Assembly: GCA_963082975.1 (NCBI GenBank)
Contig: OY720348.1
Location: 59,371,461-59,435,460, forward strand
Length of the DNA: 64,000 nt
Source of the DNA: Labia minor
Taxonomy: Eukaryota; Arthropoda; Insecta; Dermaptera; Spongiphoridae
Reading direction: 5' to 3'
Every line of letters starts with the position of its first letter. Positions within the stretch are counted from its first letter, which is position 1. The notes beneath the pieces are model-generated. The model did no database searches and was not told the origin of the DNA. It was given only the letters and a program-made list of their open reading frames with translations. Below are positions 8,151-64,000 of the stretch, one piece after another. The translations under genes and the position numbers were made by a program.

Positions 8151-8230
8151 TTTTCAAAACGATTTTATTCTCAAAATCAGAGTATTATAATTATATTCAA
8201 AATTATTATATTTCAATAAAAAAAAAAAAA

Positions 8231-8568: not shown

Positions 8569-8603
8569 GACTACAAAATTGAATCAATAATGAATACAAA
8601 TAA

Positions 8604-24587: not shown

Positions 24588-24621
<34 letters not shown>

Positions 24622-39164: not shown

Positions 39165-39470
39165 GTAGGTCCTGCGGCAATCCTCTTAATAATCGTTTTA
39201 TCATTACATTCTCTTTTCGCATGGTTTTATAGACACCAAACTCATACTTCATTTATTCGTACAGTTCCAAAAAAAAAAAACAATCATCCAAAAGGGTTTA
39301 CCATTTCTTTTTTTTTTCTTTTTTCTGAATTAATTTCAGTTTTCTTCTTTTCTGTTGATTGAACCGAAACTGTGGACTAATTAATGTAAAGTTTATCTGT
39401 GACCACGAATCAAGGAGACGAGATTGTATTGTGAGGTCAAATTCAATCAAGAATGTTAGTAGTTAAAAAA
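39165..39470 (+). other. Start of the last transglutaminase intron
   Basis: Intronic sequence with poly-A and poly-T runs. No Y-R-C-G-P-type next exon was seen here. Confidence 0.5.
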
Positions 39471-39471
39471 T

Positions 39472-40018
39472 ATGGAGTGTCTCCACTAGACTATCTAGAA
39501 AATTTGAATTAGATTAATTAGCACACATATATTATATTTAAATTAAATTTAAATAATTATAAATTATAAATTAAAATTAATAAATAGTATTTATTAAATC
39601 AGCGCGTGTTTGGCTCTTTGTTGATGACACTACGTTACGTGCTGGCGCGTGATTGCCAGTCAACGTGTTAAAAATTTAATTCCGGTACTTTCAGCGATTC
39701 AATCAAACTAAAATTCTATATATAAGAGTTTTATACAATTTTTACTCACGTGAAAAACTATCAAATATATATCTTTATTTTTACGCTGAGTTTAGAAGAA
39801 AAAAAATGAAAACGTGGCAGGTAATGGTCCGCTTCTGAATTTCTCAAAAGTTCTAGCAAATTTCATTATTCTAGCTCAATCCGTCTACACACACACACAC
39901 GGACATTTTTATCTACATTAGTGAAAATGACTCAGGGAGCTTCAAAACGTATCGAGACATCAAAATCTCGACATCGAAAATTTTCGTGATCGCAATACTA
40001 TCTCTGGCAAGATAGTAA
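39472..40018 (+). mobile_element. Family A copy at the left edge of the zinc-finger array
   Basis: Head GGAGTGTCTCCACTAGACTA, body with CTACGTTACGTGCTGGCGCG and (CA)n at about 39890-39899, end CTCTGGCAAGATAGTAAA. The CAAGATAGT variant of the terminal hairpin is shared with the copies at 53805 and 62584, and in all three the same block follows, so it belongs to the duplicated unit. Confidence 0.8.
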
Positions 40019-41237
40019 ATTGAAATATTTATTATTAATTCTTAAATTTCTTATACTTGTATTGTAAGACGAGATGATGTTGCCAACGTGTTTCCCGGCG
40101 GATGCACCAATTTGGAGGAGGTGGGGATGTTGGCTAGTCGATCCTTATAAGGGGAAGATGGAAAGGGAATTTTGAATGAAAGTCCGTTGAGCTCCAGCTA
40201 ATTTTTCGAAATTAGCAAAAGGAAGGAAATTAGGAAAGAATAGATGAAAAAAAGAGAGGAAATAATTAATTTATAGGAGAAGGGAAAGAAAGTGAATATC
40301 GAAATGTTTTTACAATTAAATATAGAAATGTATTTACAAAAGAAATATATAATCTGGAAATATAAGTATATTAATTATACAATATATGAGTGTGCGAAAC
40401 TAAACAAAAGCGTGCAATAAAAAAAAACAAGATATTTGAATTCTCCAGTTCATGAAACGTAAATAGAAGCACAAATATTTTAAATTAAAATCAATGAACA
40501 GAACAAACTGTATATTATCTTAGAAAAGAGAGTTTATAATGTCATTCCAATATATCATTAATCGAAAATAAAATGAATTCATATAAATTATATATTTTAA
40601 TAATTCCATACATAATATTATTTTACCTTTCATTAATCGGTAAGTTGAATAATCCATTTAAATAAAAAAAAAAATGTTTTAATTCAAATTTAATAACTAA
40701 AAAGAACATATTTGATAAATTATTTTTGTGTATAATTAGTAGATATTATTAAATATATTTCAGTATGGGTTTGTAATTAATATCCAAAATTATATATAAC
40801 AACTAAATATCTAATTATTTCATAATTATTATCATATAATGTGATCAAAAATTTAATAATATGAAATATGGTAACCTCGGTTATTAATAAACAAAATCGA
40901 ATGATTTTTGTATATATTTTTCAAATATTAAAAACCTTGATGGCAGCCTTCATCTGATTAGCATCATTTATTAATGGATCAAAAAAAAAAAATAAAAAAA
41001 GTTCATAAGCAAAAATATTTTTGACAGTAATTTCTAGAAGGCCATATTTGGATGAATGAAGAATATTTTTCATTTAAATGAAAATACAATTCATCCTTGT
41101 CATTTATAGTGAAGGGTAGGCTAAAAATAATAATTTACAAATTAACAACTGTTCACAACATAACCTTAAAATCTGATATTTAAACAATATAAAATTCTAT
41201 AAGAAAATAAGGAAACATCACTTAAATTATGAAATAT
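40018..41237. repeat. Duplicated block alpha, copy 1
   Basis: Non-coding block running from the family A end (TTGAAATATTTATTATTAAT) to the 3' end of ZNF-a. It recurs almost base for base at 54089-55309 (a handful of substitutions and indels seen) and in part at 62699-63095. It contains a GC-richer piece ACGTGTTTCCCGGCGGATGC. No ORF. Confidence 0.85.
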
Positions 41238-42163
41238 TTACTTACTTGGATGAATTAATAAATGTCTATTTAAATTGAATTTATGTCTAAATTTCATTTT
41301 GCAATAATTACATGCAAAAGCTTTTTCTCCAGTATGAATTAATAAATGTCTATTTAAAATTGATTGCTGAATAAATTTCTTTTTACAATAATTACATTCA
41401 AAAGGTTTTTCTCCAGTATGAATTAATAAATGTGGTTTTAAACTTGATTTCCGATTAAATTTCTTTTTACAATAATTACATTCAAATGGTTTTTCTCCAG
41501 TATGAATTAATATATGTACTTTTAAACTTGATTTCCGATTAAATTTCTTTTTACAATAATTACATTCAAATGGTTTTTCTCCTGTATGAACTAATAAATG
41601 TTGATCCAAATGAGATTTCTGATTAAATTTCTTTTTACAATAATTACATTCAAAAGGTTTTTTTCCCGTTTGAATGAAATGTATATTTAAATTTGAATTC
41701 TGATTAATTATCTTTTTATCATAAGTACATTGAAAACGCCTGTCTTCAGTTTGGTTTGACACTGTTTGTTCTTCATTTTTTTCGTCTAAATATTTCTCTG
41801 TATCCTTTTTGAGATTTAGATCATTTTTTAATATTGTAAATATTTTTTTATGAGAACATTTATTTAGATGTTTAGATAAAAAGTCCTCACTAATGAAATT
41901 AGTATGACAATATTCACAAGAATATAGAGGGCCTAAAAAAGAATTGTTTTCGTTATTTTAATTCATTATATTTTTATATATCTAAGTATTTGATAATTCA
42001 ATTTATTCCTTAATATCACTGCAAATAATATTAAAAAAAATGATTTTAGAGAGAATTAACATTACTTGAGAGAATTAACATTACTTTCGATGAAAAAAAC
42101 ATTGAAATAAAAATTACCTATATATATAGGATATTTTTTGTCTTCTTGGGAATAATTATCCAT
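41238..42163 (-). CDS. ZNF-a: two-exon C2H2 zinc-finger protein, 246 aa
   Basis: Exon 1 is 42118-42163 (MDNYSQEDKKYPIYI, 46 nt, donor G|GTAATT). Exon 2 is 41238-41932 (acceptor TTTTTTAG). The split codon gives Gly, and the join is in phase (741 nt with stop). Order: an N-terminal C2HC-like finger (CEYCHTNF...H....C), a Lys/Glu-rich linker, a degenerate finger (CTYDKK), then five intact C-x2-C-x12-H-x3-H fingers with TGEKPF linkers, each 28 residues. Recognition positions -1/3/6 read Q/H/Q, R/S/V, R/S/P, Q/I/R, H/N/R. Probably a nuclear DNA-binding protein; target unknown. The final HPSK-stop overlaps a donor-like CAA|GTAAGT, so a further exon is possible. The DNA normally upstream of exon 1 is deleted in this copy. 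Confidence 0.85.
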
Positions 42164-42353
42164 TTCTAATGGATTAATGTTTTTTATTTTAATCGTTTCT
42201 AAAAATGTACTTATAATAAAAAAGAAAGAGAAAATGTGTAACTAATTGAATTTTAATCTGTACATCTATAATTCGATTTCATGTATAATTCTAATTATAT
42301 AATTAAAAGTGTTTACAGGAAAATTTATATTATGGTAATCGAATTTAATATTT

Positions 42354-42530
42354 AGTACCTGGTTCAGCTAGTCGCCGCTCGGTACTTTTAAAAAAATATT
42401 CCTTATGAACTATGAATATTTAAGATTAAGATTATTATTTAAAATAAATACACGACAAAATATATGAAACAATTTCAAATAATTTAATAGAACATAAATT
42501 AAAAAAATAGTCATAAAACATACAGCAATA
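42354..42530 (+). repeat. Family C copy inside the zinc-finger unit
   Basis: GTACCTGGTTCAGCTAGTCG, CCGCTCGGTACTTTT, then TATTCCTTATGAACTATGAA. The same copy recurs in each duplicated unit at 46177, 57897 and 61488, so it predates the duplications. Confidence 0.8.
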
Positions 42531-43589
42531 AATGTGCGTTAAAGATTTTTATATTTTTATAGAAATGAACATAAAAAATATAAAGTATATAACATTAATC
42601 AAAGAATGAATCCAAAATAATCTTTTGTGAGCATTAATACGCCTTTTATTCAAAAATTATGTATTAATAAATGTTAAATAATTTTCATTTTACAATTATT
42701 TCATTCAAAAAAACTTTTTATCTGTATGAATTATTAAATGACAATTTAAATATGATTAAATTAAATTCAAACTGAGAAGATGAAGCCCAAAATTCACAGT
42801 TTGAAGAAAATAACATTTGGCTAAATCATTGTTGTGCAAATAAGTTTAAGTATTATTATAGTCTTTGTATTTAATATAATTTTTGTTTTGACAGTAATTT
42901 CTAGAAGACCATATTTGGATGAATAGTATTTATGAAGACATCTTTTGTGTCATTTTTGTTTGACACTGTTTTAAAAGCGTTATAATTTCTTCTATTAAAC
43001 TTAAATTTTAAATTTTTTTTTTTTAATTTTCAAATCTTGCTTTCAATAATATTATCAGGGCTTTTAGCTCATTTGACCTTCTATAAAAAAATTTACATAT
43101 ATGTATATATACAGTGGCGTCGGAAATTCAGGGTTATTGATTACAGAAAAATGTATATATTGTATTGCAATATTAAGATTATCAAGTTCATTATTCACTT
43201 CATACGTTCGAGATTTTTTTACCTGACATTACATTACATTACTAGCAAATTTTAAAAAATTGGAATTAATCGGTTAGACATCTGAGTGGCACATACATAT
43301 ATGTATATGTTGTTGACAAATTTAAGAAAATAGCATTTGGCTAGGCAAAAGCCATTTGGCTAAATCTTTGTTGTGCAAATAAGTTTAAGTATTATTATAG
43401 TCTTTGTATTTAATATAATTTTTGTTTTGACAGTAATTTCTAGAAGACCATATTTGGATGAATAGTATTTATCAAGACATCTTTTGTGTCATTTTAAAAA
43501 TAATAATTTACAAATTAACAACTGTTCACGACTTAACCTTAAAATCTGATATTTAAACAATATAAAATTCTAAAATACGGAAACATCAC
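42531..43589. repeat. Duplicated spacer beta, copy 1
   Basis: Non-coding spacer between the family C copy and the 3' end of ZNF-b. Landmarks: ATAAATGTGCGTTAAAGATT, a decayed finger-like stretch near 42690-42740 (ATTATTTCATTCAAAAAAAC), CAGTGGCGTCGGAAATTCAG near 43112 and ACATTACATTACATTACTAG. It recurs at about 46350-47340, 51085-52170, 58065-59130, 61670-62130 and 63380-63985. The 72-codon plus-strand frame at 43037-43255 is conserved only because the DNA is. Confidence 0.8.
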
Positions 43590-44520
43590 TTAAATAATGA
43601 AATATTTATTTACTTGGATAATTAATAAATGTATATAAATAAATTTTAAATTTGATTTTAGTCTAAATTTCTTTTCACAATAATTACATTGAAAATATTT
43701 TTCTCCTGTATGAATTAATAAATGTTTATCTAAATGAGATTTCCGATTAAATTTCTTTTTACAATAAATACATTCAAAAGGTTTTTCTCCAGTATGAATT
43801 AATAAATGTCTATTTAAAATTGATTTCTGATTAAATTTCTTTTTACAATAATTACATTCAAATGGTTTTTCTCCAGTATGAATTAATATATGTAGTTTTA
43901 AACTTGATTTCCGATTAAATGTCTTTTTACAATAATTACATTCAAATGGTTTTTCTCCTGAATGAATTAATAAATGTTTATTTAAATTTGATTTCAGATT
44001 AAATTTCTTTTTACAATAATTACATTCAAAAGGTTTTTTTCCCGTTTGAATGAAATGTATATTTAAATTTGAATTCTGATTAATTATCTTTTTATCATAA
44101 GTACATTGAAAACGCCTGTCTTCAGTTTGGTTTGACACTGTTTGTTCTTCATTTTTTTCGTCTAAATATTTCTCTGTATCCTTTTTGAGATTTAGATCAT
44201 TTTTTAATATTGTAAATATTTTTTTATGAGAACATTTATTTAGATGTTTAGATAAAAAGTCCTTACTAATGAAATTAGTAAGACAATATTCACAAGAATA
44301 TAGAGGGCCTAAAAAAGAATTGTTTTCGTTATTTTAATTCATTATATTTTTATATATCTAAGTATTTGATAATTCAATTTATTCCTTAATATCACTGCAA
44401 ATAATATTAAAAAAAATGATTTTAGAGAGAATTAACATTACTTTCGATGAAAAAAACATTGAAATAAAAATTACCTATATATATTGGATAATTTTTGTCT
44501 TCTTGGGAATAAAGATCCAT
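43590..44520 (-). CDS. ZNF-b: two-exon C2H2 zinc-finger protein, 254 aa
   Basis: Exon 1 is 44475-44520 (MDLYSQEDKNYPIYI); exon 2 is 43590-44308. Joined length is 765 nt with stop. Architecture as ZNF-a, but the finger set differs: intact fingers FNLKSNLNKH, FNRKSSLKLH, FNQKSILNRH and FNRKSHLDKH, then a last finger that has lost its histidine spacing (RLKSNLKFIYIHLLI). A missing base near the end, relative to ZNF-a, shifts the frame so the C-terminus runs to IIQVNKYFII. The leading finger reads CEYCLTNF. A conserved upstream region (44620-44700) contains GCGCCATTTATCAACGG. Confidence 0.85.
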
Positions 44521-45650
44521 TTCTAATGGATTAATGTTTTTTATATAAAATATATAATAGATAAATAATATAAACGTTTTAAATAATAGTATTTGATTAA
44601 TTGTAAAAGTGAGAAACAATCAACCACAGACGCTAAAACGATTTGGCTAGCAGGTGTTGACGTATTAACCTTTTTGGCGCCATTTATCAACGGAAAGAAT
44701 AACTAATTTAATATTTTTCAAAAATACAAATATATATATATATATATATATATACAATTTTTTTTATTATAATTAGATAACTTAAAGAATAATATAATGA
44801 ATAATAACTTTATTCATGGAATAAAGTCGATAAATCATTTTCCAAATTTAAATTTTTTTTTTTGATTTTATAATATTTTATTGTCCCTTTAGTACTTTTA
44901 TAAACAAACATGAATGAAGGCAGCTTTATATTTTTCGTCTAAATAATTTTTTAAATAACATTACCTCTGTGACAGTTTTCCTTTTTATCTCAAATTTATA
45001 ATCAACTATTTATTAATAATTAGGCAACCAATACTATTAAAATGAAATTTTGATACATTTTAAAATCTCGATTTTCGTGATCGCAATACTTTCTCTGTTG
45101 AGATAGTAAAAAACAGAAAGATGAATATCATTTAGAACCAATGATAAAGAAAATTTTTATAAATATATATCATATATACTTGAATTTATTATGATTCTAT
45201 CATTAATAAAATAAAACAGGAAGCACTTTATTTAACTATTCAATTAATTGAACAATAAATTAAATAATCAAATTTTAAATCACTCATTCATTTCAGATAC
45301 AAGTGATAATCTGAAATTTCATATCCAATTATTTTAAATGATTTAAAAAATAATGAATCTTTAAAATAAAGTGAACATATTGTTTGTTACAACTATTACT
45401 ACTACTACTAGTACTAGTAACTAAATTTAGTAAATGCCTCCTCAAAATATTTGCCGCTTCAAAAATGAAAAATGAAAATTTTCGTGTTATTTACACGTTT
45501 AATTATGAAATTTGTGTCTATCTATCTATCTATATATATACATATATAATTAAAATATAATATAGTATTATCTAATTAATATATAATGTTATAATAATTA
45601 ATATTATAAAGATTTAACTATTTAAATATAAATTCATAGATAAGTATGAG

Positions 45651-45682
45651 ACTGTAAAAAGCCTCGCTGGCTCTTTTGCAGT
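45651..45682. other. Short imperfect hairpin conserved in three units
   Basis: ACTGTAAAAAGCC-TCGCT-GGCTCTTTTGCAGT pairs over about 13 bp with one bulge. The same sequence occurs near 57351 and 60964. It could act as a structured RNA or be neutral. Confidence 0.35.
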
Positions 45683-45748
45683 TCTTTATTTATAAAAATT
45701 ATACCGATGAACATACTCGAGAGAACATTTCATTTATAAAACTCTAAA

Positions 45749-45886
45749 ATGGTTATAGTAAATTTAGAGGTATATGAAGAAGCACTGGTTACATTTACAG
45801 CAGTATTGGTAGGCAAAACCGCAGGATGTTGGCAAAGTAATGTTTCCGAGATAAGAAGAGCCAATAAAATATTCAATCAATATTGA
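45749..45886 (+). CDS. Small ORF, 45 codons, copy 1 (doubtful gene)
   Basis: Reads MVIVNLEVYEEALVTF through GKTAGCWQ to RRANKIFNQY. Equivalent ORFs are intact at 57450-57587 (three amino-acid changes) and 61063-61200 (one silent change and one amino-acid change relative to this copy). No known domain. It is divergent from the zinc-finger genes. The duplications are young, so an open frame alone is weak evidence. Confidence 0.25.
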   Translation: MVIVNLEVYEEALVTFTAVLVGKTAGCWQSNVSEIRRANKIFNQY

Positions 45887-46176
45887 TTTTAAAATAATTA
45901 AGACCTAATTAAACAATCTGTTTAGTGAAAATGTTATGAAATTCGCATAAATCGAAAAAACTTTCCCAGGAAAATAGATTTTCACAAGAATAGGTAACTT
46001 TACTTGTTTCTTTAATCGTTTCTAAAAATGTACTTATAATAAAAAAGAAAGAGAAAATGTGTAACTAATTGAATTTTAATCTGTACATCTATAATTCGAT
46101 CTCATGTATAATTCTAATTATATAATTAAAAGTGTTTACAGGAAAATTTATATTATGGTTATCGCATTTAATATTT

Positions 46177-46350
46177 AGTACCTGGTTCAGCTAGTCGCCG
46201 CTCGGTACTTTTAAAAAAATATTCCTTATGAACTATGAATATTTAAGATTAAGATTATTATTTAAAATAAATAAACGACAAAATATATGAAACAATTTCA
46301 AATGATTTAATAGAAGATAAATTAAAAAATAGTCATAAAACATACAGCAA
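46177..46350 (+). repeat. Family C copy in second unit
   Basis: Same insertion as at 42354 (GTACCTGGTTCAGCTAGTCG), duplicated with the unit. Confidence 0.8.
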
Positions 46351-47479
46351 TAAATGTGCGTTAAAGATTTTTATATTTTTATAGAAATGAACATAAAAAA
46401 TATAAAGTATATAACATTAATCAAAGAATGAATCCAAAATACTCTTTTGTGAACATTAATACGCCTTTTATTCAAAAAGTATGTATTAATAAATGTTAAA
46501 TAATTTTCATTTTACAATTATTTCATTCAAAAAAACTTTTTATCTGTATGAATTATTAAATGACAATTTAAATATGATTAAATTAAATTCAAACTGAGAA
46601 GATGAAGCCCAAAATTCACAGTTTGAAGAAAATAACATTTGGCTAAATCATTGTTGTGCAAATAAGTTTAAGTATTATTATAGTCTTTGTATTTAATATA
46701 ATTTTTGTTTTGACAGTAATTTCTAGAAGACCATATTTGGATGAATAGTATTTATGAAGACATCTTTTGTGTCATTTTTGTTTGACACTGTTTTAAAAGC
46801 GTTATAATTTCTTCTATTAAACTTAAATTTTAAATTTTTTTTTTTTAATTTTCAAATCTTGCTTTCAATAATATTATCAGGGCTTTTAGCTCATTTGACC
46901 TTCTATAAAAAAATTTACATATATATATATATACAGTGGCGTCTGAAATTCAGGGTTATTGATTACAGAAAAATGTATATTTTATTGCAATATTAAGATT
47001 ATCAAGTTCATTATTCACTTCATACGTTCGAGATTTTTTTACCTGACATTACATTACATTACTAGCAAATTTTAAAAAATTGGAATTAATCGGTTAGACA
47101 TCTGAGTGGCACATACATATATGTATATGTTGTTGACAAATTTAAGAAAATAGCATTTGGCTAGGCAAAAGCCATTTGGCTAAATCTTTGTTGTGCAAAT
47201 AAGTTTAAGTATTATTATAGTCTTTGTATTTAATATAATTTTTGTTTTGACAGGAATTTCTAGAAGACCATATTTGGATGAATAGTATTTATCAAGACAT
47301 CTTTTGTGTCATTTTTGTTTGACACTGTTTTAAAAGCGTTATAATTTCTTCTATTTTGTCACCATTCCATATATTTTTACAGCTGTGGATTTATATTTTT
47401 CATTTAAATGAAAATAAAATTCATCCTTGTCATTTATAGTGAAGGGTAGGCTAAAAATAATAATTTACAAATTAACATC
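46351..47479. repeat. Duplicated spacer beta, copy 2, interrupted by Bel/Pao
   Basis: Matches 42531-43490 and then the 62131-62257 stretch (TTTTTACAGCTGTGGATTTA, CATCCTTGTCATTTATAGTG). It stops at AACATC where the retrotransposon LTR begins. In the 62 kb unit the corresponding sequence continues straight into a zinc-finger gene. Confidence 0.75.
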
Positions 47480-48386
47480 TGTGTTTAATACATTAACGTA
47501 ATAATCCCAGCTTCAACGTTGAATGTCTCAGAAAGAGATTCTTATTGTCGTTGGAATTATTACAAGCTATTTTCTCTCGAAAATAGCCTGAAGAGAGATA
47601 GGATTTTTGATTCTAAGCGATAGGTAGTGGATCGTGATGGTTGGTATAAGGGAAACACACTCCAATGTAATCTTTTCAGAGCTTTTATTTAAACTTATTC
47701 ATGTATTGATACAAACAGAAACTATAAACACCTAAACCGGATGGAATCGATCAAACCAGTCCCTTGTTAGGTGCGCCAAAATGAATAATACTAATATATA
47801 CACATATACAGTATTAAATTGATACAACCAGGTAAATAGGGCCGGAATTTCAATGCTGCCACGCGTCCAATGCACAGAACTGAGACGCTGCTTCTCTCGT
47901 AGACCCGTGTTCGCTCGTAGATGCAATATTCTCCAAATAAAGTTTGGTATTCTTGCCAGATGGTCGTAGTCGATCAAAGATAGCTCTTGCGGGGAAGGAA
48001 GAAAGGAAAGGAATAAAAATATAGAAAGGAAGAGTTAGAAGGGATTCAGATGGTGGTATCTTCGAACAAAAGGATCTAAAACACTTTTCTCAAACAAACT
48101 CTTCAAACAAACACTCTTTGCCGTTGATCAGTCCACCAAATGAAATCGTAGGAAAAAGCAGGCTCAACGCTGCTCAGAAGAGGTAGAATGACTTGCTCAG
48201 GTCAAAGGCAGGTGAGCGAGTGAGTCCAAAAATGGCCGGAAACACAGCAAGACTCAGAACAGGACAGGAGGGGAAAGTCAAGGAAGGGGAAAAGAGATAG
48301 GGCATGTAGGTTGAATCAGAAAGACGGCCCTCTCGGAGTAGTACTTCGAGTTCTGTGCACATGTGCTTCGAAATGGCTTGTTCACA
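47480..48386 (-). repeat. Bel/Pao 3' LTR (about 907 bp)
   Basis: Bounded on plus by TGTGTTTAATAC and GGCTTGTTCACA, with the polypurine-tract complement CTCCCTCCC directly to its right. GC-richer than the host DNA. No second LTR is available for dating. Confidence 0.7.
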
Positions 48387-48439
48387 CTCCCTCCCAAAAA
48401 TCCACAAAAGACTGGATTTTTACAAATTAAATTAAAGGA

Positions 48440-49035
48440 AATGAAATCTAAACTAGGTCGGGAACAATTATGAGTTTGTTAACGGGTCTGAGGTAAATCC
48501 CCTTAGCAGTTTTGACTTTGACAACTCTTACGACATTATCTTTACCAGGCAGTGTCTCTACGACTCGGGCCATAGGCCAATGGAAAGGGTCACGTTGTTC
48601 TCTTTCAAAATCACTAATTGATTTTCGGTTATATTAGGAGTTAACGTATTAGATTTATATCGGCTCTGAAGAGAAGAAAGATATTCCCGGGACCATTTGT
48701 CCAAAAATGTTGAACATATTCTTCTGTAGTTGGAATCGCCTTGATAAACTGATGTCTTTGGATGGGATTCCCAATTCTAAGGAGGGTAGTTGTTTCAAAG
48801 GAGCACCGATCATATAATGACCGGGGGACAAGTAGTCAAAACTATCGGGGTCGAAAGTAAGAGGGGACAGGGGGCGTGAATTTAATATTCCCTCAATTTG
48901 GCACAAAAGAGTTTCCATTTCAGATATCGTCAATATCTGATTCTTAACACCCCGTTTTAAAGAAAACTTAGCGGATTTAACCCCCGCCTCCCATAATCCA
49001 CCGAAATTAGGTGAGTAAGGGGGAATATATTTCCA
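48440..49035 (-). pseudogene. Bel/Pao integrase C-terminal remnant
   Basis: Minus-strand frames show PPYSPNFGGLWEAGVKSAKF (end of the integrase core), ILNSRPLSPLTFDPDSFDYL and GHYMIGAPL, the Pao-family integrase tail. A frameshift near 48700 and another near 48580 break it. The following segment still resembles the tail with V-V-x-V-x-T-A-K-G. It joins directly to protease-region sequence, showing a large internal deletion of reverse transcriptase and RNase H. Confidence 0.8.
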
Positions 49036-49239
49036 TTTCTAAATAATCAAATTGTGATTTTTGCAACGGTTTAGCAGGAATTTTGAAATTAAAATTATTG
49101 ATAATGTTAAAGTGTTCTTGAATTTTGAATTGAGGATCGATTGGAGAACCAAACGTTAGTAAAACGGCATTGGTCGAATGAGCTAAACAAACATCATGAA
49201 GGCCACTAATTTTAGTATTACTTCTGATTGATTCTAACC

Positions 49240-50673
49240 CTAGAAATGCAATAAATCCGAGGAAATAAGAGAGACTTCCGATCCTGAGTCTATAAAGGCA
49301 TTTAATGTAATGGGCCTGTTTTTCGAATTTCTAGCTATCAAAGTCACTCTGCTATGCAGGGAAGTAAAACTACTATTTGATGGAAAGGAAGAAAGGGCGT
49401 TATTCGATTTAGAAACCTCTGGGTTAGTATTTTCTGCTTTCTTTCTTGGAGACGGGGTGTTCAAGTGGTCATTATCGAAATGGAGTAAGGCATTGTGTGA
49501 CCGTTGGCAAGAAGGGCAATTTTTAAACGAACAGGTGGAGGCATGGTGAGCAGGGCTAAAGCATTTGAAGCACAGTTTGTTAGAGGATACCCAAGCGTAC
49601 CTCTCTCTGACTGCTTTGTTAAGGAATTGGGTGCAAGTGAAAAGCTTGTGGGGCTTTTGACACATGGGACATGGAACTGTTGAAGGCCGGGTAGAGGATA
49701 AATTGAAATTATGTCTTAGGCTATGCTGCCTGGGAATTCTAGGAACTATCTCACGCTTTCTCGAAGGTCCATCGATACTTCGAGGTGCTGACTCGCTCAT
49801 GGCATCAGTGTGCAGTTGCAGGAATGACAATATCGTCTTATATTCGGGAATGTCCTCATCATTCCCAATGGACAGGATCCACTTGTGTCTCAGCTCTGGC
49901 GTCATTTTCTGCGTGATAATTCGTGCAATGATTGGATTCCATTCCTTTACATTGCAACCCAGGTTGATCAATTGCATAATGTTTTCCTTAAAAATAATAA
50001 ACAAATTATTAATATCACTCGCATTATCATGCCTCATCGGCGAACAATTTAACATTTTATCGAGCAAAGAAAATATTATGGTTCTCTTTTTAAAATATTT
50101 GGATTTCAACATTGTTATCGCTACCGTATAATTTTCCTTATTAATTGTAAGGTTTTTAATTAAATCTAATGGTTCGGAAATCAAGCAAGATTTTAAATAT
50201 TGCAATTTGTCAATTTCACTCAATGATCCATTTTGATCTATTGCATTTTCAAATGCTGCCCAAAAAGAACACCAATTTAAAATATCTCCAGAAAAGGTGG
50301 GCAATTTGAATTTAGGTAACTCAATGTTACTTCTATAATTTGCAATATTTTGTTCCTGCTTGATTTCCTTTGTACATGGCTCCATTGAATACATGAGATC
50401 ATTGACTACATCAATATGTCCAGAAGCTTCTTTTAATAAACTATTGCAAACCGGATCATCTTTTAACCCATTCAAGATTATCTCGGTTCGGAAAGCTACC
50501 AATTCCTTTACTAATGAAGTGCCTTGGTCTAAAAATCGTTGAAAGTGGCATCCATTCAATGAATCTTTCCGTCTCTGTGCAATTGAAGTAAAATCCTCTG
50601 ATGATGCCTCCAGCACATACCACCTTGCAGTCAATGTCTCTGTTGTTAAAGCCATTTTACTTATCTTAAACAA
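49240..50673 (-). CDS. Bel/Pao gag with start of protease, 477 codons
   Basis: The longest open frame of the window. It has an N-terminal coiled and capsid-like region (LPKFKLPTFSGDILNWCSFW, the DUF1759-type Pao gag core). Cys/His knuckles follow near residues 340-400 (CPMCQKPHKLFTC, CFKCFSPAHHASTC, CPSCQRSHNALLH). Then comes a retropepsin start with the catalytic motif FIDSGSEVSLIS near residues 460-471. It stops at SSDLLHF-stop; the protease appears to go on in another frame (49030-49240), so a frameshift is present. The apparent start lies about 15 bp inside the frame at MFKISKMALT, and the inner Met (MALT) is equally possible. Packaging and polyprotein function are presumably lost with the deletion of RT. 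Confidence 0.85.
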   Translation of the reverse strand: MFKISKMALTTETLTARWYVLEASSEDFTSIAQRRKDSLNGCHFQRFLDQGTSLVKELVAFRTEIILNGLKDDPVCNSLLKEASGHIDVVNDLMYSMEPCTKEIKQEQNIANYRSNIELPKFKLPTFSGDILNWCSFWAAFENAIDQNGSLSEIDKLQYLKSCLISEPLDLIKNLTINKENYTVAITMLKSKYFKKRTIIFSLLDKMLNCSPMRHDNASDINNLFIIFKENIMQLINLGCNVKEWNPIIARIITQKMTPELRHKWILSIGNDEDIPEYKTILSFLQLHTDAMSESAPRSIDGPSRKREIVPRIPRQHSLRHNFNLSSTRPSTVPCPMCQKPHKLFTCTQFLNKAVRERYAWVSSNKLCFKCFSPAHHASTCSFKNCPSCQRSHNALLHFDNDHLNTPSPRKKAENTNPEVSKSNNALSSFPSNSSFTSLHSRVTLIARNSKNRPITLNAFIDSGSEVSLISSDLLHF

Positions 50674-51071
50674 AAGAATTTTATTAATTTATAAATAAAG
50701 AAAACAATTAAAAAGAAAGCAAGTTGAGTTAAAGAATTATATATATAAATAGAATTTAAAATATTTGAGAAAATAATTTTTGAATTAAATTAATTGAATT
50801 AAAATTAGAAATATATTATAAACAATTTTTAAGAGCTATTAAACAATACAAATTTATATATATAATAATTTAATGTTGTGGCTATCTCGAAACCACGTGG
50901 ACTCTTTTAAACAAAAAATCAAATTTATCTTAAAGAAAAAATTAAATTTTAAACAAAAAACATTAAAAATAAATTAATAAAATTAATTTATTAGTGTGGA
51001 TCGAAAATAATTCCAAATTGAATCAAGTTACACTCGTACATATGTATATAATTTCCGAAAAGCAATATGGC

Positions 51072-52172
51072 AATGATTTAATAGAAGATAAATTAAAAAA
51101 TAGTCATAAAACATACAGCAATAAATGTGCGTTAAAGATTTTTATATTTTTATAGAAATGAACATAAAAAATATAAAGTATATAACATTAATCAAAGAAT
51201 GAATCCAAAATACTCTTTTGTGAACATTAATACGCCTTTTATTCAAAAAGTATGTATTAATAAATGTTAAATAATTTTCATTTTACAATTATTTCATTCA
51301 AAAAAACTTTTTATCTGTATGAATTATTAAATGACAATTTAAATATGATTAAATTAAATTCAAACTGAAATGAAGCCCAAAATTCACAGTTTGAAGAAAA
51401 TAACATTTGGCTAAATCATTGTTGTGCAAATAAGTTTAAGTATTATTATAGTCTTTGTATTTAATATAATTTTTGTTTTGACAGTAATTTCTAGAAGACC
51501 ATATTTGGATGAATAGTATTTATCAAGACATCTTTTGTGTCATTTTTGTTTGACACTGTTTTAAAAGCGTTATAATTTCTTCTATTAAACTTAAATTTTA
51601 AATTTTTTTTTTTTAATTTTCAAATCTTGCTTTCAATAATATTATCAGGGCTTTTAGCTCATTTGGCCTTCTATAAAAAATTTACATATATATATACATG
51701 GGCGTCGGAAATTCAGGGTTATTGATTACAGAAAAATGTATATTTTATTGCAATATTAAGATTATCAAGTTCATTATTCACTTCATACGTTCGAGATTTT
51801 TTTACCTGACATTACATTACATTACTAGCAAATTTTAAAAAATTGGAATTAATCGTTTAGACATCTGAATGGCACATACATATATGTATATGTTGTTGAC
51901 AAATTTAAGAAAATAGCATTTGGCTAGGCAAAAGCCATTTGGCTAAATCTTTGTTGTGCAAATAAGTTTAAGTATTGTTATAGTCTTTGTATTTAATATA
52001 ATTTTTGTTTTGACAGTAATTTCTAGAAGACCATATTTGGATGAATAGTATTTATCAAGACATCTTTTGTGTCATTTTAAAAATAATAATTTACAAATTA
52101 ACAACTGTTCACGACTTAACCTTAAAATCTGATATTTAAACAATATAAAATTCTAAAATACGGAAACATCAC
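51072..52172. repeat. Duplicated spacer beta, copy 3
   Basis: Resumes the host duplicated unit in the middle of family C (ATTTAATAGAAGATAAATTA, as at 46310) and continues to the 3' end of ZNF-c, matching 46310-47300 and 43400-43589. Confidence 0.8.
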
Positions 52173-53103
52173 TTAAATAATGAAATATTTATTTACTTGG
52201 ATAATTAATAAATGTATATAAATAAATTTTAAATTTGATTTTAGTCTAAATTTCTTTTCACAATAATTACATTGAAAATATTTTTCTCCTGTATGAATTA
52301 ATAAATGTTTATCTAAATGAGATTTCCGATTAAATTTCTTTTTACAATAAATACATTCAAAAGGTTTTTCTCCAGTATGAATTAATAAATGTCTATTTAA
52401 AATTGATTTCTGATTAAATTTCTTTTTACAATAATTACATTCAAATGGTTTTTCTCCAGTATGAATTAATATATGTAGTTTTAAACTTGATTTCCGATTA
52501 AATGTCTTTTTACAATAATTACATTCAAATGGTTTTTCTCCTGAATGAATTAATAAATGTTTATTTAAATTTGATTTCAGATTAAATTTCTTTTTACAAT
52601 AATTACATTCAAAAGGTTTTTTTCCCGTTTGAATGAAATGTATATTTAAATTTGAATTCTGATTAATTATCTTTTTATCATAAGTACATTGAAAACGCCT
52701 GTCTTCAGTTTGGTTTGACACTGTTTGTTCTTCATTTTTTTCGTCTAAATATTTCTCTGTATCCTTTTTGAGATTTAGATCATTTTTTAATATTGTAAAT
52801 ATTTTTTTATGAGAACATTTATTTAGATGTTTAGATAAAAAGTCCTTACTAATGAAATTAGTAAGACAATATTCACAAGAATATAGAGGGCCTAAAAAAG
52901 AATTGTTTTCGTTATTTTAATTCATTATATTTTTATATATCTAAGTATTTGATAATTCAATTTATTCCTTAATATCACTGCAAATAATATTAAAAAAAAT
53001 GATTTTAGAGAGAATTAACATTACTTTCGATGAAAAAAACATTGAAATAAAAATTACCTATATATATTGGATATTTTTTGTCTTCTTGGGAATAAAGATC
53101 CAT
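52173..53103 (-). CDS. ZNF-c: two-exon C2H2 zinc-finger protein, 254 aa
   Basis: Exon 1 is 53058-53103 (MDLYSQEDKKYPIYI); exon 2 is 52173-52891. Over the 182 codons of the finger-bearing ORF the protein is identical to ZNF-b, including the degenerate last finger and shifted C-terminus. Exon 1 differs by one residue (KKYP against KNYP). Very recent duplication or gene conversion with ZNF-b is implied. The upstream block gamma begins (53210-53500) but is soon replaced by unrelated DNA. Confidence 0.85.
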
Positions 53104-53308
53104 TTCTAATGGATTAATGTTTTTTATATAAAATATATAATAGATAAATAATATAAACGTTTTAAATAATAGTATTTGATTAATTGTAAAAGTGAGAAAC
53201 AATCAACCACAGACGCTAAAACTATTTGGCTAGCATGTATTGACGTATTAACCTTTTTGGCGCCATTTATCAACGGAAAGAATAACTAATTTAATATTTT
53301 TCAAAAAT

Positions 53309-53339
<31 letters not shown>

Positions 53340-53804
53340 CTTTTTTTTATTATAATTAGATAACTTAAAGAATAATATAATGAATAATAACTTTATTCAT
53401 GGAATAAAGTCGATAAATCATTTTCCAAATTTAAATTTTTTTTTTTTGATTTTATACTATTTTATTTTCCCTTTTATATACGAACCTGAATTTATTTTAC
53501 GGCTAAATAATTTTTTAAATAACATGCCAATGCACAAACGTATTTAGGAGAATGATTATTATTAATTTGTACACAGTAATCAAACTCATATCATTGTATT
53601 TTTTTGAGCCAGAAAAAAAAATGTACATCTTAAAAGTTCATAATTCAAAATATTAAAGGCACTTATTAATTTTAAATTATAAAATGGAAATGAAATTTAA
53701 AGAAAACGATTCCATCGATAATAAAATTTTTAATTTGAATATATTGAAAAGATTAATTGAATATTTTTTAAACATTATTCTTCCAAAACAGCAATAACAA
53801 AAAT
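53104..53804. other. Upstream region of ZNF-c, partly unique
   Basis: Matches block gamma up to about 53520 (GGCGCCATTTATCAACGG, (TA)n run, ATAAAGTCGATAAATCATTT). After that, 53520-53804 matches no other unit, and it ends at a family A copy. Confidence 0.6.
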
Positions 53805-54088
53805 CTGTACTGTCTCCACTCGATTATCTCGCAAATTTGAATTGTATTAATTAATATATTTTATATTTAAATTAAATTTAATTAATTAAATTATAGATTA
53901 AAATTAATAAATATTTATCAAACCAAACCGTTTTTAAGTAATCCTATCTACATACACACACACACACACACAGACAATTTTATCAACCTTAGTGAAAATG
54001 ACTCAGGGACCTTCAAAACGTATCGAGACATCAAAATCTCGACATCGAAAATTTTCGTGATCGCAATACTATCTCTGGCAAGATAGTA
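53805..54088 (+). mobile_element. Family A copy with internal deletion, unit junction
   Basis: Head ACTGTCTCCACTCGATTATC, then a jump from TTTATCAAACC to AAACCGTTTTTAAGTAATCC (about 260 bp missing compared with 39472-40018), a (CA)n tract, and the CTCTGGCAAGATAGTAAA end. Followed by block alpha. Confidence 0.75.
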
Positions 54089-55309
54089 AATTGAAATATT
54101 TATTATTAATTCTTAAATTTCTTATACTTGTATTGTAAGACGAGATGATGTTGCCAACGTGTTTCCCGGCGGATGCACCAATTTGGAGGAGGTGGGGATG
54201 TTGGCTAGTCGATCCTTATAAGGGGAAGATGGAAAGGGAATTTTGAATGAAAGTCCGTTGAGCGCCAGCTAATTTTTCGAAATTATCAAAAGGAAGGAAA
54301 TTAGGAAAGAATAGATGAAAAAAAGAGAGGAAATAATTAATTGATAGGAGAAGGGAAAGAAAGTGAATATCGAAATGTTTTTACAATTAAATATAGAAAT
54401 GTATTTACAAAAGAAATATATAATCTGGGAATATAAGTATATTAATTATACAATATATGAGTGTGCGAAACTAAACAAAAGCGTGCAATAAAAAAAAAAC
54501 AAGATATTTGAATTCTCCAGTTCATGAAACGTAAATAGAAGCACAAATATTTTAAATTAAAATCAATGAACAGAACAAACTGTATATTATCTTAGAAAAG
54601 AGAGTTTATAATGTCATTCCAATATATCATTAATCGAAAATAAAATGAATTCATATAAATTATATATTTTAATAATTCCATACATAATATTATTTTACCT
54701 TTCATTAATCGGTAAGTTGAATAATCCATTTAAATAAAAAAAAAAATGTTTTAATTCAAATTTAATAACTAAAAAGAACATATTTGATAAATTATTTTTG
54801 TGTATAATTAGTAGATATTATTAAATATATTTCAGTATGGGTTTGTAATTAATATCCAAAATTATATATAACAACTAAATATCTAATTATTTCATAATTA
54901 TTATCATATAATGTGATCAAAAATTTAATAATATGAAATATGGTAACCTCGGTTATTAATAAACAAAATCGAATGATTTTTGTATATATTTTTCAAATAT
55001 TAAAAACCTTGATGGCAGCCTTCATCTGATTAGCATCATTTATTAATGGATCAAAATAAAAAAATAAAAAAAGTTCATAAGCAAAAATATTTTTGACAGT
55101 AATTTCTAGAAGGCCATATTTGGATGAATGAAGAATATTTTTCATTTAAATGAAAATAAAATTCATCCTTGTCATTTATAGTGAAGGGTAGGCTAAAAAT
55201 AATAATTTACAAATTAACAACTGTTCACAACATAACCTTAAAATCTGATATTTAAACAATATAAAATTCTATAAGAAAATAAGGAAACATCACTTAAATT
55301 ATGAAATAT
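54089..55309. repeat. Duplicated block alpha, copy 2
   Basis: Nearly identical to 40018-41237; differences seen include AGCGCC for AGCTCC and ATCA for AGCA. No ORF. Confidence 0.85.
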
Positions 55310-56216
55310 TTACTTACTTGGATGAATTAATAGATGTCTATTTAAATTGAATTTATGTCTAAATTTCATTTTGCAATAATTACATGCAAAAGCTTTTTCT
55401 CCAGTATGAATTAATAAATGTCTATTTAAAATTGATTGCTGAATAAATTTCTTTTTACAATAATTACATTCAAAAGGTTTTTCTCCAGTATGAATTAATA
55501 AATGTGGTTTTAAACTTGATTTCCGATTAAATTTCTTTTTACAATAATTACATTCAAATGGTTTTTCTCCAGTATGAATTAATATATGTACTTTTAAACT
55601 TGATTTCCGATTAAATTTCTTTTTACAATAATTACATTCAAATGGTTTTTCTCCTGTATGAACTAATAAATGTTGATCCAAATGAGATTTCTGATTAAAT
55701 TTCTTTTTACAATAATTACATTCAAAAGGTTTTTTTCCCGTTTGAATGAAATGTATATTTAAATTTGAATTCTGATTAATTATCTTTTTATCAAGAGTAT
55801 TTTGAAAACGCCTGTCTTTAGTTTGGATTGCCACTGTTTGTTCTTCATTTTTTTCGTCTAAATATTTCTCTGTATCCTTTTTGAGATTTAGATCATTTTT
55901 TAATATTGTAAATATTTTTTTATGAGAACATTTATTTAGATGTTTAGATAAAAAGTCCTCACTAATGAAATTAGTATGACAATATTCACAAGAATATAGA
56001 GGGCCTAAAAAAGAATTGTTTTCGTTATTTTAATTCATTATATTTTTATATATCTAAGTATTTGATAATTCAATTTATTCCTTAATATCACTGCAAATAA
56101 TATTAAAAAAAATGATTTTAGAGAGAATTAACATTACTTTCGATGAAAAAAACATTGAAATAAAAATTACCTATATATATAGGATATTTTTTGTCTTCTT
56201 GGGAATAATTATCCAT
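55310..56216 (-). CDS. ZNF-d: two-exon C2H2 zinc-finger protein, 246 aa
   Basis: Exon 1 is 56171-56216 (MDNYSQEDKKYPIYI); exon 2 is 55310-56004. From KKIINQNSNL to the stop the protein equals ZNF-a (five intact fingers). Just before that, a short stretch differs at several residues: ZNF-a reads SNQTEDRRFQCTYDKK, ZNF-d reads AIQTKDRRFQNTLDKK. The degenerate second finger has therefore lost its first Cys here. Unlike ZNF-a it keeps the full upstream block gamma. Confidence 0.85.
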
Positions 56217-57896
56217 TTCTAATGGATTAATGTTTTTTATATAAAATATATAATAGATAAATAATATAAAGGTTTTAAATAATAGTATTTGATTAATTGT
56301 AAAAGTGAGAAACAATCAACCACAGACGCTAAAACGATTTGGCTAGCAGTTGTTGACGTATTAACCTTTTTGGCGCCATTTATCAACGGAAAGAATAACT
56401 AATTTAATATTTTTCAAAAATACAAATATATATATATATATATATATATACAATTTTTTTTATTATAATTAGATAACTTAAAGAATAATATAATGAATAA
56501 TAACTTTATTCATGGAATAAAGTCGATAAATCATTTTCCAAATTTAAATTTTTTTTTTTATTTTATAATATTTTATTGTCCCTTTAATACTTTTATAAAC
56601 AAACATGAATGAAGGCAGCTTTATATTTTTCGTCTAAATAATTTTTTAAATAACATTACCTCTGTGACAGTTTTCCTTTTTATCTCAAATTTATAATCAA
56701 CTATTTATTAATAATTAGGCAACCAATACTATTAAAATGAAATTTTGATACATTTTAAAATCTCGATTTTCGTGATCGCAATACTTTCTCTGTTGAGATA
56801 GTAAAAAACAGAAAGATGAATATCATTTAGAACCAATGATAAAGAAAATTTTTATAAATATATATCATATATACTTGAATTTATTATGATTCTATCATTA
56901 ATAAAATAAAACAGGAAGCACTTTATTTAACTATTCAATTAATTGAACAATAAATTAAATAATCAAATTTTAAATCACTCATTCATTTCAGATACAAGTG
57001 ATAATCTGAAATTTCATATCCAATTATTTTAAATGATTTAAAAAATAATGAATCCTTAAAATAAAGTGAACATATTGTTTGTTACAACTATTACTACTAC
57101 TACTAGTACTAGTAACTAAATTTAGTAAATGCCTCCTCAAAATATTTGCCGCTTCAAAAATTAAAAATGAAAATTTTCGGGTTATTTACACGTTTAATTA
57201 TGAAATTTGTGTCTATCTATCTATCTATCTATATATATATACATATATAATTAAAATATAATATAGTATTATCTAATTAATATATAATGTTATAATAATT
57301 AATATTATAAAGATTTAACTATTTAAATATAAATTCATAGATAAGTATGAGACTGTAAAAAGCCTCGCTGGCTCTTTTGCAGTTCTTTATTTATAAAAAT
57401 TATACCGATGAACATACTCGAGAGAACATTTCATTTATAAAACTCTAAAATGGTTATAGTAAATTTAGAGGTATATGAAGAAGCACTGGTTACATTAACA
57501 GCAGTATTGGTAGGCAAAACCGCAGGATGTTGGCAAAGTAAAGTTTCCGAGATAAGAAGAGGCAATAAAATATTCAATCAATATTGATTTTAAAATAAAT
57601 TAAATAAATAAATTATTATTTAAGACCTAATTAAACAATCTGTTTAGTGAAAATGTTATGAAATTCGCATAAATCGAAAAAACTTTTCCAGGAAAATAGA
57701 TTTTCACAAGAATAGGTAACTTTACTTGTTTCTTTAATCGTTTCTAAAAATGTACTTATAATAAAAAAGAAAGAGAAAATGTGTAACTAATTGAATTTTA
57801 ATCTGTACATCTATAATTCGATTTCATGTATAATTCTAATTATATAATTAAGTGTTTACAGGAAAATTTATATTATGGTAATCGAATTTAATATTT
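56217..57896. repeat. Duplicated upstream block gamma, copy 2
   Basis: Matches 44521-46176 closely: promoter-like GGCGCCATTTATCAACGG near 56372, a family A remnant at 56760-56805, (CTA)n, (TCTA)n, the hairpin at about 57351 and the small ORF at 57450-57587. Confidence 0.8.
57450..57587 (+). CDS. Small ORF, 45 codons, copy 2 (doubtful gene)
   Basis: Same frame as 45749-45886 with three residue changes (F to L, N to K, A to G). No stop or frameshift. No recognised domain. Confidence 0.22.
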   Translation: MVIVNLEVYEEALVTLTAVLVGKTAGCWQSKVSEIRRGNKIFNQY

Positions 57897-59132
57897 AGTA
57901 CCTGGTTCAGCTAGTCGCCGCTCGGTGCTTTTAAAAAAATATTCCTTATGAACTATGAATATTTAAGATTAAGATTATTATTTAAAATAAATACACGACA
58001 AAATATATGAAACAATTTCAAATAATTTAATAGAACATAAATTAAAAAAATAGTCATAAAACATACAGCAATAAATGTGCGTTAAAGATTTTTATATTTT
58101 TATAGAAATGAACATAAAAAATATAAAGTATATAACATTAATCAAAGAATGAATCCAAAATAATCTTTTGTGAGCATTAATACGCCTTTTATTCAAAAAT
58201 TATGTATTAATAAATGTTAAATAATTTTCATTTTACAATTATTTCATTCAAAAAAACTTTTTATCTGTATGAATTATTAAATGACAATTTAAATATGATT
58301 AAATTAAATTCAAACTGAGAAGATGAAGCCCAAAATTCACAGTTTGAAGAAAATAACATTTGGCTAAATCATTGTTGTGCAAATAAGTTTAAGTATTATT
58401 ATAGTCTTTGTATTTAATATAATTTTTGTTTTGACAGTAATTTCTAGAAGACCATATTTGGATGAATAGTATTTATGAAGACATCTTTTGTGTCATTTTT
58501 GTTTGACACTGTTTTAAAAGCGTTATAATTTCTTCTATTAAACTTAAATTTTAAATTTTTTTTTTTTAATTTTCAAATCTTGCTTTCAATAATATTATCA
58601 GGGCTTTTAGCTCATTTGACCTTCTATAAAAAAATTTACATATATGTATATATACAGTGGCGTCGGAAATTCAGGGTTATTGATTACAGAAAAATGTATA
58701 TATTGTATTGCAATATTAAGATTATCAAGTTCATTATTCACTTCATACGTTCGAGATTTTTTTACCTGACATTACATTACATTACTAGCAAATTTTAAAA
58801 AATTGGAATTAATCGGTTAGACATCTGAGTGGCACATACATATATGTATATGTTGTTGACAAATTTAAGAAAATAGCATTTGGCTAGGCAAAAGCCATTT
58901 GGCTAAATCTTTGTTGTGCAAATAAGTTTAAGTATTATTATAGTCTTTGTATTTAATATAATTTTTGTTTTGACAGGAATTTCTAGAAGACCATATTTGG
59001 ATGAATAGTATTTATCAAGACATCTTTTGTGTCATTTTAAAAATAATAATTTACAAATTAACAACTGTTCACGACTTAACCTTAAAATCTGATATTTAAA
59101 CAATATAAAATTCTAAAATACGGAAACATCAC
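57897..59132. repeat. Family C copy plus spacer beta, copy 4
   Basis: GTACCTGGTTCAGCTAGTCG head at 57897, followed by the spacer as at 42531-43589, up to the 3' end of ZNF-e. Confidence 0.8.
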
Positions 59133-59830
59133 TTAAATAATGAAATATTTATTTACTTGGATAATTAATAAATGTATATAAATAAATTTTAAATTTGATT
59201 TTAGTCTAAATTTCTTTTCACAATAATTACATTGAAAATATTTTTCTCCTGTATGAATTAATAAATGTTTATTTAAATTTGATTTCAGATTAAATTTCTT
59301 TTTACAATAATTACATTCAAAAGGTTTTTTTCCCGTTTGAATGAAATGTATATTTAAATTTGAATTCTGATTAATTATCTTTTTATCATAAGTACATTGA
59401 AAACGCCTGTCTTCAGTTTGGTTTGACACTGTTTGTTCTTCATTTTTTTCGTCTAAATATTTCTCTGTATCCTTTTTGAGATTTAGATCATTTTTTAATA
59501 TTGTAAATATTTTTTTATGAGAACATTTATTTAGATGTTTAGATAAAAAGTCCTCACTAATGAAATTAGTATGACAATATTCACAAGAATATAGAGGGCC
59601 TAAAAAAGAATTGTTTTCGTTATTTTAATTCATTATATTTTTATATATCTAAGTATTTGATAATTCAATTTATTCCTTAATATCACTACAAATAATATTA
59701 AAAAAAATGATTTTAGAGAGAATTAACATTACTTGAGAGAATTAACATTACTTTCGATGAAAAAAACATTGAAATAAAAATTACCTATATATATTGGATA
59801 ATTTTTGTCTTCTTGGGAATAAAGATCCAT
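59133..59830 (-). CDS. ZNF-e: contracted zinc-finger protein, 170 aa
   Basis: Exon 1 is 59785-59830 (MDLYSQEDKNYPIYI); exon 2 is 59133-59599. Compared with ZNF-b/c exactly 84 codons are missing, which is three 28-residue fingers. The first finger (FNLKSNLNKHLLIH) is joined in frame to TGEKYFQCNYCEKKF, the degenerate last finger. Only one intact C2H2 finger remains besides the N-terminal C2HC-like one, so sequence-specific DNA binding is doubtful. The frame and splice sites are intact. Confidence 0.8.
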
Positions 59831-61487
59831 TTCTAATGGATTAATGTTTTTTATATAAAATATATAATAGATAAATAATATAAACGTTTTAAATAATAGT
59901 ATTTGATTAATTGTAAAAGTGAGAAACAATCAACCACAGACGCTAAAACGATTTGGCTAGCAGGTGTTGACGTATTAACCTTTTTGGCGCCATTTATCAA
60001 CGGAAAGTATAACTAATTTAATATTTTTCAAAAATACAAATATATATATATATATATATATACAATTTTTTTTATTATAATTAGATAACTTAAAGAATAA
60101 TATAATGAATAATAACTTTATTCATGGAATAAAGTCGATAAATCATTTTCCAAATTTAAATTTTTTTTTTTGATTTTATAATATTTTATTGTCCCTTTAG
60201 TACTTTTATAAACAAACATGAATGAAGGCAGCTTTATATTTTTCGTCTAAATAATTTTTTAAATAACATTACCTCTGTGACAGTTTTCCTTTTTATCTCA
60301 AATATATAATCAACTATTTATTAATAATTAGGCAACCAATACTATTAAAATGAAATTTTGATACATTTTAAAATCTCGATTTTCGTGATCGCAATACTTT
60401 CTCTGTTGAGATAGTAAAAAACAGAAAGATGAATATCATTTAGAACCAATGATAAAGAAAATTTTTATAAATATATATCATATATACTTGAATTTATTAT
60501 GATTCTATCATTAATAAAATAAAACAGGAAGCACTTTATTTAACTATTCAATTAATTGAACAATAAATTAAATAATCAAATTTTAAATCACTCATTCATT
60601 TCAGATACAAGTGATAATCTGAAATTTCATATCCAATTATTTTAAATGATTTAAAAAATAATGAATCCTTAAAATAAAGTGAACATATTGTTTGTTACAA
60701 CTATTACTACTACTACTAGTACTAGTAACTAAATTTAGTAAATGCCTCCTCAAAATATTTGCCGCTTCAAAAATGAAAAATGAAAATTTTCGGGTTATTT
60801 ACACGTTTAATTATGAAATTTGTGTCTATCTATCTATCTATCTATATATATATACATATATAATTAAAATATAATATAGTATTATCTAATTAATATATAA
60901 TGTTATAATAATTAATATTATAAAGATTTAACTATTTAAATATAAATTCATAGATAAGTATGAGACTGTAAAAAGCCTCGCTGGCTCTTTTGCAGTTCTT
61001 TATTTATAAAAATTATACCGATGAACATACCCGAGAGAACATTTCATTTATAAAACTCTAAAATGGTTATAGTAAATTTGGAGGTATATGAAGAAGCACT
61101 GGTTACATTTACAGCAGTATTGGTAGGCAAAACCGCAGGATGTTGGCAAAGTAAAGTTTCCGAGATAAGAAGAGCCAATAAAATATTCAATCAATATTGA
61201 TTTTAAAATATTTAAGACCTAATTAAACAATCTGTTTAGTGAAAATGTTATGAAATTCGCATAAATCGAAAAAACTTTCCCAGGAAAATAGATTTTCACA
61301 AGTATAGGTAACTTTACTTGTTTCTTTAATCGTTTCTAAAAATGTACTTATAATAAAAAAGAAAGAGAAAATGTGTAACTAATTGAATTTTAATCTGTAC
61401 ATCTATAATTCGATTTCATGTATAATTCTAATTATATAATTAAGTGTTTACAGGAAAATTTATATTATGGTAATCGAATTTAATATT
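59831..61487. repeat. Duplicated upstream block gamma, copy 3
   Basis: As at 44521-46176, with the hairpin at about 60964 and the small ORF at 61063-61200. Differences are scattered substitutions and short indels. Confidence 0.8.
61063..61200 (+). CDS. Small ORF, 45 codons, copy 3 (doubtful gene)
   Basis: Same frame as 45749-45886; TTG for TTA is silent, and it shares the N to K change with copy 2. No recognised domain. Confidence 0.22.
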   Translation: MVIVNLEVYEEALVTFTAVLVGKTAGCWQSKVSEIRRANKIFNQY

Positions 61488-62339
61488 TAGTACCTGGTTC
61501 AGCTAGTCGCCGCTCGGTACTTTTAAAAAAATATTCCTTATGAACTATGAATATTTAAGATTAAGATTATTATTTAAAATAAATACACGACAAAATATAT
61601 GAAACAATTTCAAATAATTTAATAGAACATAAATTAAAAAAATAGTCATAAAACATACAGCAATAAATGTGCGTTAAAGATTTTTATATTTTTATAGAAA
61701 TGAACATAAAAAATATAAAGTATATAACATTAATCAAAGAATGATTCAAAAATACTCTTTTGTGAACATTAATACGCCTTTTATTCAAAAAGTATGTATT
61801 AATAAATGTTAAATAATTTTCATTTTACAATTATTTCATTCAAAAAATCTTTTTATCTGTATGAATTATTAAATGACAATTTAAATATGATTAAATTAAA
61901 TTCAAACTGAGAAGATGAAGCCCAAAATTCACAGTTTGAAGAAAATAACATTTGGCTAAATCATTGTTGTGCAAATAAGTTTAAGTATTATTATAGTCTT
62001 TGTATTTAATATAATTTTTGTTTTGACATTAATTTCTAGAAGACCATATTTGGATGAATAGTATTTATGAAGACATCTTTTGTGTCATTTTTGTTTGACA
62101 CTGTTTTAAAAGCGTTATAATTTCTTCTATTTTGTCACAATTCCATGATATTTTTACAGCTGTGGATTTATATTTTTCATTTAAATGAAAATTAAATTCA
62201 TCCTTGTCATTTATAGTGAAGGGTAGGCTAAAAATAATAATTTACAAATTAACATCTGTTCACAACATAACCTTAAAATCTGGTATTTAATCAATATAAA
62301 ATTCTAAAATACGGAAACATCAGTTAAATAATGAAATAT
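61488..62339. repeat. Family C copy plus shortened spacer, copy 5
   Basis: Family C head at 61489, spacer beta to about 62130, then a jump to TTTTTACAGCTGTGGATTTA, the variant also seen before the Bel/Pao element. This variant spacer lacks the CAGTGGCGTCGG part. Confidence 0.75.
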
Positions 62340-62587
62340 TTACCTACTTGGATGAATTAAAAAATGTTTAGCTAAATGAGATTTCCGATTAAATTCCTTT
62401 TTACAATAAATACATTCAAAAGGTTTTTCTCCTGTATGATTTAATAAATGTCGATCTAAAGTTGATTTTTGATTAAATTTCTTTTTGCAATAATTACATA
62501 GAAACGGCTTTTCTCCAGTATGAATTAATAAATGTCTATTTAAAATTGATTTCTGATTAAAAATCTTTTTACAATCTTTTTACATTT
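62340..62587 (-). pseudogene. ZNF-f: truncated zinc-finger gene
   Basis: Only the last three fingers remain (FNQKSILNRH, FNQKSTLDRH, FNRKSHLAKHFLIHPSR, then stop). Upstream, the frame runs into KIFKK-like sequence and is cut at about 62587, where family A 3' sequence starts. No exon 1, N-terminal finger or promoter. Its finger set (STLDR, SHLAK) differs from all other copies, so it represents another ancestral paralog. Confidence 0.8.
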
Positions 62588-62698
62588 TTATCAACCTTAG
62601 TGAAAATGACTCAGGGACCTTCAAAACTTATCGAGACATCAAAATCTCGACATCGAAAATTTTCGTGATCGCAATACTATCTCTGGCAAGATAGTAAA
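62584..62698 (+). mobile_element. Family A 3' end at the ZNF-f breakpoint
   Basis: Starts within the TTTTTATCAACCTTAGTG block and ends CTCTGGCAAGATAGTAAA. It replaces the missing 5' part of ZNF-f. Confidence 0.75.
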
Positions 62699-63985
62699 TT
62701 GAAATATTTATTATTAATTCTTAAATTTCTTATACTTGTATTGTAAGGCGAGATGATGTTGCAAACGTGTTTCCCGACGGATGCACCAATTTGGAGGAGG
62801 TGGGGATGTTGGCTAGTCGATCCTTATAAGGGGATGATGGAAAGGGAATTTTGAATTAAAGGCCGTTGAGCGCCAGCTAATTTTTCGAAAATAGCAAAAG
62901 GAAGGAAATTAGGAAAGAATAGATGAAAAAAAGAGAGGAAATAATTAATTTATAGGAGAAGGGAAAGAAAGTGAATATCGAAATGTTTTTACAATTAAAT
63001 ATAGAAATGTATTTACAAAAGAAATATATAGACTAGGAATATAATTATATTAATTATACAATATATGTGTGCGAAACTAAACAAAAGCGTGCAATAAAAA
63101 GAAAATTTTATTCTTTTTGTATGTATATATAATACATCTGTAACGGATAACAATATTAAAAATTATTTTTCAAATATTTATTATTAATAATTTTATTTCA
63201 TTGTTTTTTTAAATTTTGATATTAAATTCTTGTGTGACTTATACTATAATTTGTTTTTTATATTTTTTAAATTTATATTTACAATAAAAAATAATCTATA
63301 AATAGAAGAGAGATATTATAACTCTAAATCTTAATAATTTAATTATTTTACTGCGATTAATTTTGTGATTTTTATTTAATTAAACTTAAATTTTAAATTT
63401 TTTTTTTTTAATTTTCAAATCTTGCTTTCAATAATATTATCAGGGCTTTTAGCTCATTTGGCCTTCTTTCAGAAATTTACATATATATATATACAGTGGC
63501 GTCGGAAATTCAGGGTTATTGATTACAGAAAATTGTATATTGTATTGCAATATTAAGATTATCAAGTTCATTATTCACTTCATACGTTCCAGATTTTTTT
63601 ACCTGACATTACATTACATTACTAGCAAATTTTAAAAAATTGGAATTAATCGTTTAGACATCTGAATGGCACATACATATATGTATATGTTGTTGACAAA
63701 TTTAAGAAAATAGCATTTGGCTAGGCAAAAGCCATTTGGCTAAATCATTGTTGTTCAAATAAGTTTAAGTATTATTATAGTCTTTGTATATAATATAATT
63801 TTTGTTTTGACAGTAATTTCTAGAAGACCATATTTGGATGAATAGTATTTATCAAGACATCTTTTGTGCCATTTTAAAAATAATAATTTACAAATTAACA
63901 ACTGTTCACAACATAACCTTAAAATCTGATATTTAAACAATATAAAATTCTAAAATACGGAAACATCACTTAAATAATGAAATAT
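62699..63985. repeat. Truncated block alpha, unique piece, then spacer beta copy 6
   Basis: Block alpha matches to about 63095 (GCGTGCAATAAAAAG). 63096-63380 has no match elsewhere in the window. From about 63385 the spacer resumes (TTTCAAATCTTGCTTTCAAT) and leads to the next zinc-finger gene. Confidence 0.75.
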
Positions 63986-64000
63986 TTACTTACTTGGATG
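63986..64000 (-). CDS. ZNF-g: last codons of a seventh zinc-finger gene
   Basis: The window ends in TTACTTACTTGGATG, the complement of the HPSK-stop ending of ZNF-a and ZNF-d, preceded by the same 3' flank. The gene continues to the right, so the array is larger than the window. Confidence 0.75.
   Translation of the reverse strand, partial: HPSK

Follow-up and report, generated by a model that had tools for sequence, protein, structure and literature searches.

Architecture of the zinc-finger array

The window analyzed here, a 64,000-nucleotide stretch of Labia minor contig OY720348.1, carries a cluster of DNA-binding zinc-finger genes that is young and still being shuffled, with neighboring genes swapping their starts and their finger sets. 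The preliminary observation was confirmed in part, and our data, the sequence of this one genome, support its description of the locus as a tandem array of recent origin, with units that are mosaics and fingers that turn over. Two-exon models, built from splice signals and homology only, have an open frame at all nine array sites bearing the signature that marks the start of exon 2, and the canonical fingers of the array retain intact zinc ligands. Tandem C-x2-C-x12-H-x3-H fingers joined by TGEKP-type linkers identify the genes as poly-C2H2 (Krueppel-type). The window finger arrays have a sequence period of 84 bp, and every window open reading frame (ORF) scanned (3 of 3) matched Pfam zf-C2H2 above its cut-off. 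The listed parts of the array and its associated features are as follows.

41238..42163, minus strand, array part (Pfam zf-C2H2, E 7e-28)
43590..44520, minus strand, array part
52173..53103, minus strand, array part
55310..56216, minus strand, array part
59133..59830, minus strand, array part
62343..62579, minus strand, array part
63986..64000, minus strand, array part ending with the window
44521..45500, strand unspecified, array part
42049..42086, strand unspecified, array part
42188..43495, beta spacer, copied almost identically at 46011-47315 and 57733-59038 and in part at 51076-52077 and 61325-62131
42538..42774, minus strand, relic of a dead family gene (a finger plus the 3' end) lying in the beta spacer
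39887..41122, alpha 3' tail, reaching at its outer end into the dispersed repeat at 39464-40017
47483..51071, minus strand, truncated BEL/Pao-type retroelement with a DUF1759 gag ORF at 49240-50688
1-574, 4486-4766, 8227-8905, 9869-10509, 17971-18482, 19033-19606, 24129-24705, 27304-27892, 39464-40017, 53800-54088 and 62582-62696, copies of a dispersed repeat

The BEL/Pao-type element breaks the array at what appears to be the site where a further unit was lost. Paired long repeats were not found for the element (47483-51071). Its shorter ORF at 48655-49038, which had no match in a Pfam scan, resembles what we take to be an integrase end. The dispersed repeat is about 550 bp long, contains an internal GT-rich run, and is present in multiple copies across the window. 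It may have acted as a recombination site, since the alpha tail has its outer end inside one copy.

Immediately left of the array lie transglutaminase exons of the factor XIII / TGM type (38610-39232, plus strand). The ORF at 38873-39232 matched Transglut_core (E 4e-9), with factor XIII as the top PDB chain (E 4e-29), and has a G+C content of 49% versus 26% for the window; the ORF at 38610-38939 had no Pfam match and was assigned to transglutaminase by eye. Farther left, the plus-strand ORF at 36680-36976 resembles what is presumably a mariner transposase end, with no match in a Pfam scan, and a 26-bp unit is tandemly repeated 4.8 times at 33069-33196.

The N-terminal head module

Family members begin with a head containing a C-x2-C-x12-H-x3-C finger that is invariant in all 14 aligned members. 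The 14 heads were all picked by the exon-2 signature, which fixes the first two Cys, while the His and last Cys fall outside it. No Pfam family scored above its cut-off in two whole heads (E<=10) or the 14 exon-2 heads (E<=1). In these scans and in three exon-2 ORFs, neither KRAB nor the C4-type ZAD domain was matched, although a KRAB domain could lie in an exon further upstream. AlphaFold modeling with 14 sequences predicted a beta-beta-alpha finger that leads into a helix at residues 26-65 (predicted local distance difference test, pLDDT, 87.6); the other four models had pLDDT values of 58-62. Structure comparison of the head model returned middling Z scores (top 5.8), with matches that included a zinc-finger/GCN4 chimera. 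Such matches would fit a possible dimerising finger-plus-helix.

A genome-wide family and its competing explanations

Its start signature places the array in a family with roughly a thousand such signatures across this one animal genome. The exon-2 signature matched 1,019 sites genome-wide, a tally of DNA signatures, pseudogenes among them, rather than of genes, and many contigs are represented among the matches listed. This result strengthens the earlier suggestion of a lineage-specific expansion. For the proposed link to transposon or chromatin control, one weak motif test came out negative. Of the 150 best head matches, 101 fall in many clusters on a single 76.9-Mb contig (C10), a concentration that may reflect query bias.

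C10, 57.22-57.30, 67.73-67.74 and 68.63-68.70 Mb, example clusters
C10:59288000-59335500 (loci L022-L027), second family cluster, tandem segments of ~22 kb up to 99.8% identical

Genes with 12 fingers, genes with 7 fingers, and broken copies occur on both strands of the second cluster.

The array might instead be functionless debris of the wider family, duplicating, recombining and decaying without selection. We consider this possible but unlikely. The open two-exon models speak against it only weakly, because few stops would be expected anyway at about 1% divergence; the retained zinc ligands also count against it, as does a ratio of nonsynonymous to synonymous differences per site (pN/pS) of 0.62-0.71 in dispersed heads. 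Dispersal could also be explained if the zinc-finger gene were carried by, or part of, a mobile element, as the abundance of signature matches across contigs might suggest. The 237-bp 3'-region relic points the same way, with 86-92% matches at finger-array loci on six contigs, yet we regard this origin as highly improbable. Haplotypes or unresolved repeats wrongly placed in tandem would likewise mimic an array. On indirect evidence, such an artefact is very unlikely: the assembly comprises 604 Mb in 71 contigs, with no N in the 254 kb around the window; the units are distinguished by variants and junctions, with block order permuted rather than plainly repeated; and head matches occur on seven contigs.

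Zinc-finger expansions are a main known route to new DNA-binding specificities in animal genomes, and few of those in groups other than vertebrates, cephalopods and Drosophila are, to our knowledge, understood. A family that combines about a thousand exon-2 signatures with a single fixed head, and whose clusters are so young that individual recombination steps show, would allow turnover to be read directly. It would also direct attention to a putative, so far undescribed recruiting module, and experiments could then identify the partner of that module. A doubtful but broader proposal is that one animal lineage, probably of insects, evolved its own counterpart of the KRAB zinc-finger proteins: about a thousand genes sharing an undescribed C2HC-finger-plus-helix module for recruitment or dimerisation, maintained in an arms race with repeats, whose finger arrays are still being redistributed among heads through recombination.

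Comparison with known zinc-finger systems

By architecture, a close likeness is to the ZF271-like / APEZ gene expansions known from milkweed bug and pea aphid, which according to PMC6444547 are also insect poly-C2H2 genes with repeated fingers (3-45 per protein), pentapeptide linkers, tandem clusters (of 4-8 in Hemiptera), disrupted copies and finger-array differences. That source gives >115 ZF271-class proteins for Oncopeltus and, for the richest of the 16 insects it compares, >350 C2H2 proteins in all, whereas we count, at the DNA level, 1,019 exon-2 signatures of a single headed family. Mammalian poly-zinc-finger / KRAB zinc-finger genes, as described by Emerson and Thomas 2009 (PMC2604467), form clusters with whole-finger gain and loss and contact-site change. 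The present genes appear to share these features, as well as finger arrays that vary and that an N-terminal module often accompanies; in contrast, the array head is a C2HC finger with a predicted helix and no KRAB, SCAN or BTB match. Drosophila ZAD genes (PMC7655104) are another set of arthropod zinc-finger genes that are young and dynamic and carry an N-terminal module, but the head here has no ZAD match. Cephalopod expansions are of similar scale (1,453 C2H2 sequences in Octopus bimaculoides and 2,442 in Doryteuthis pealeii, per PMC12513265), although those totals cover all C2H2 types and ours covers signatures of one family. The turnover process is the one these papers describe for mammalian poly-zinc-finger and hemipteran ZF271-like genes; what is distinctive here is the size of a single family, by signature count, and its own head module.
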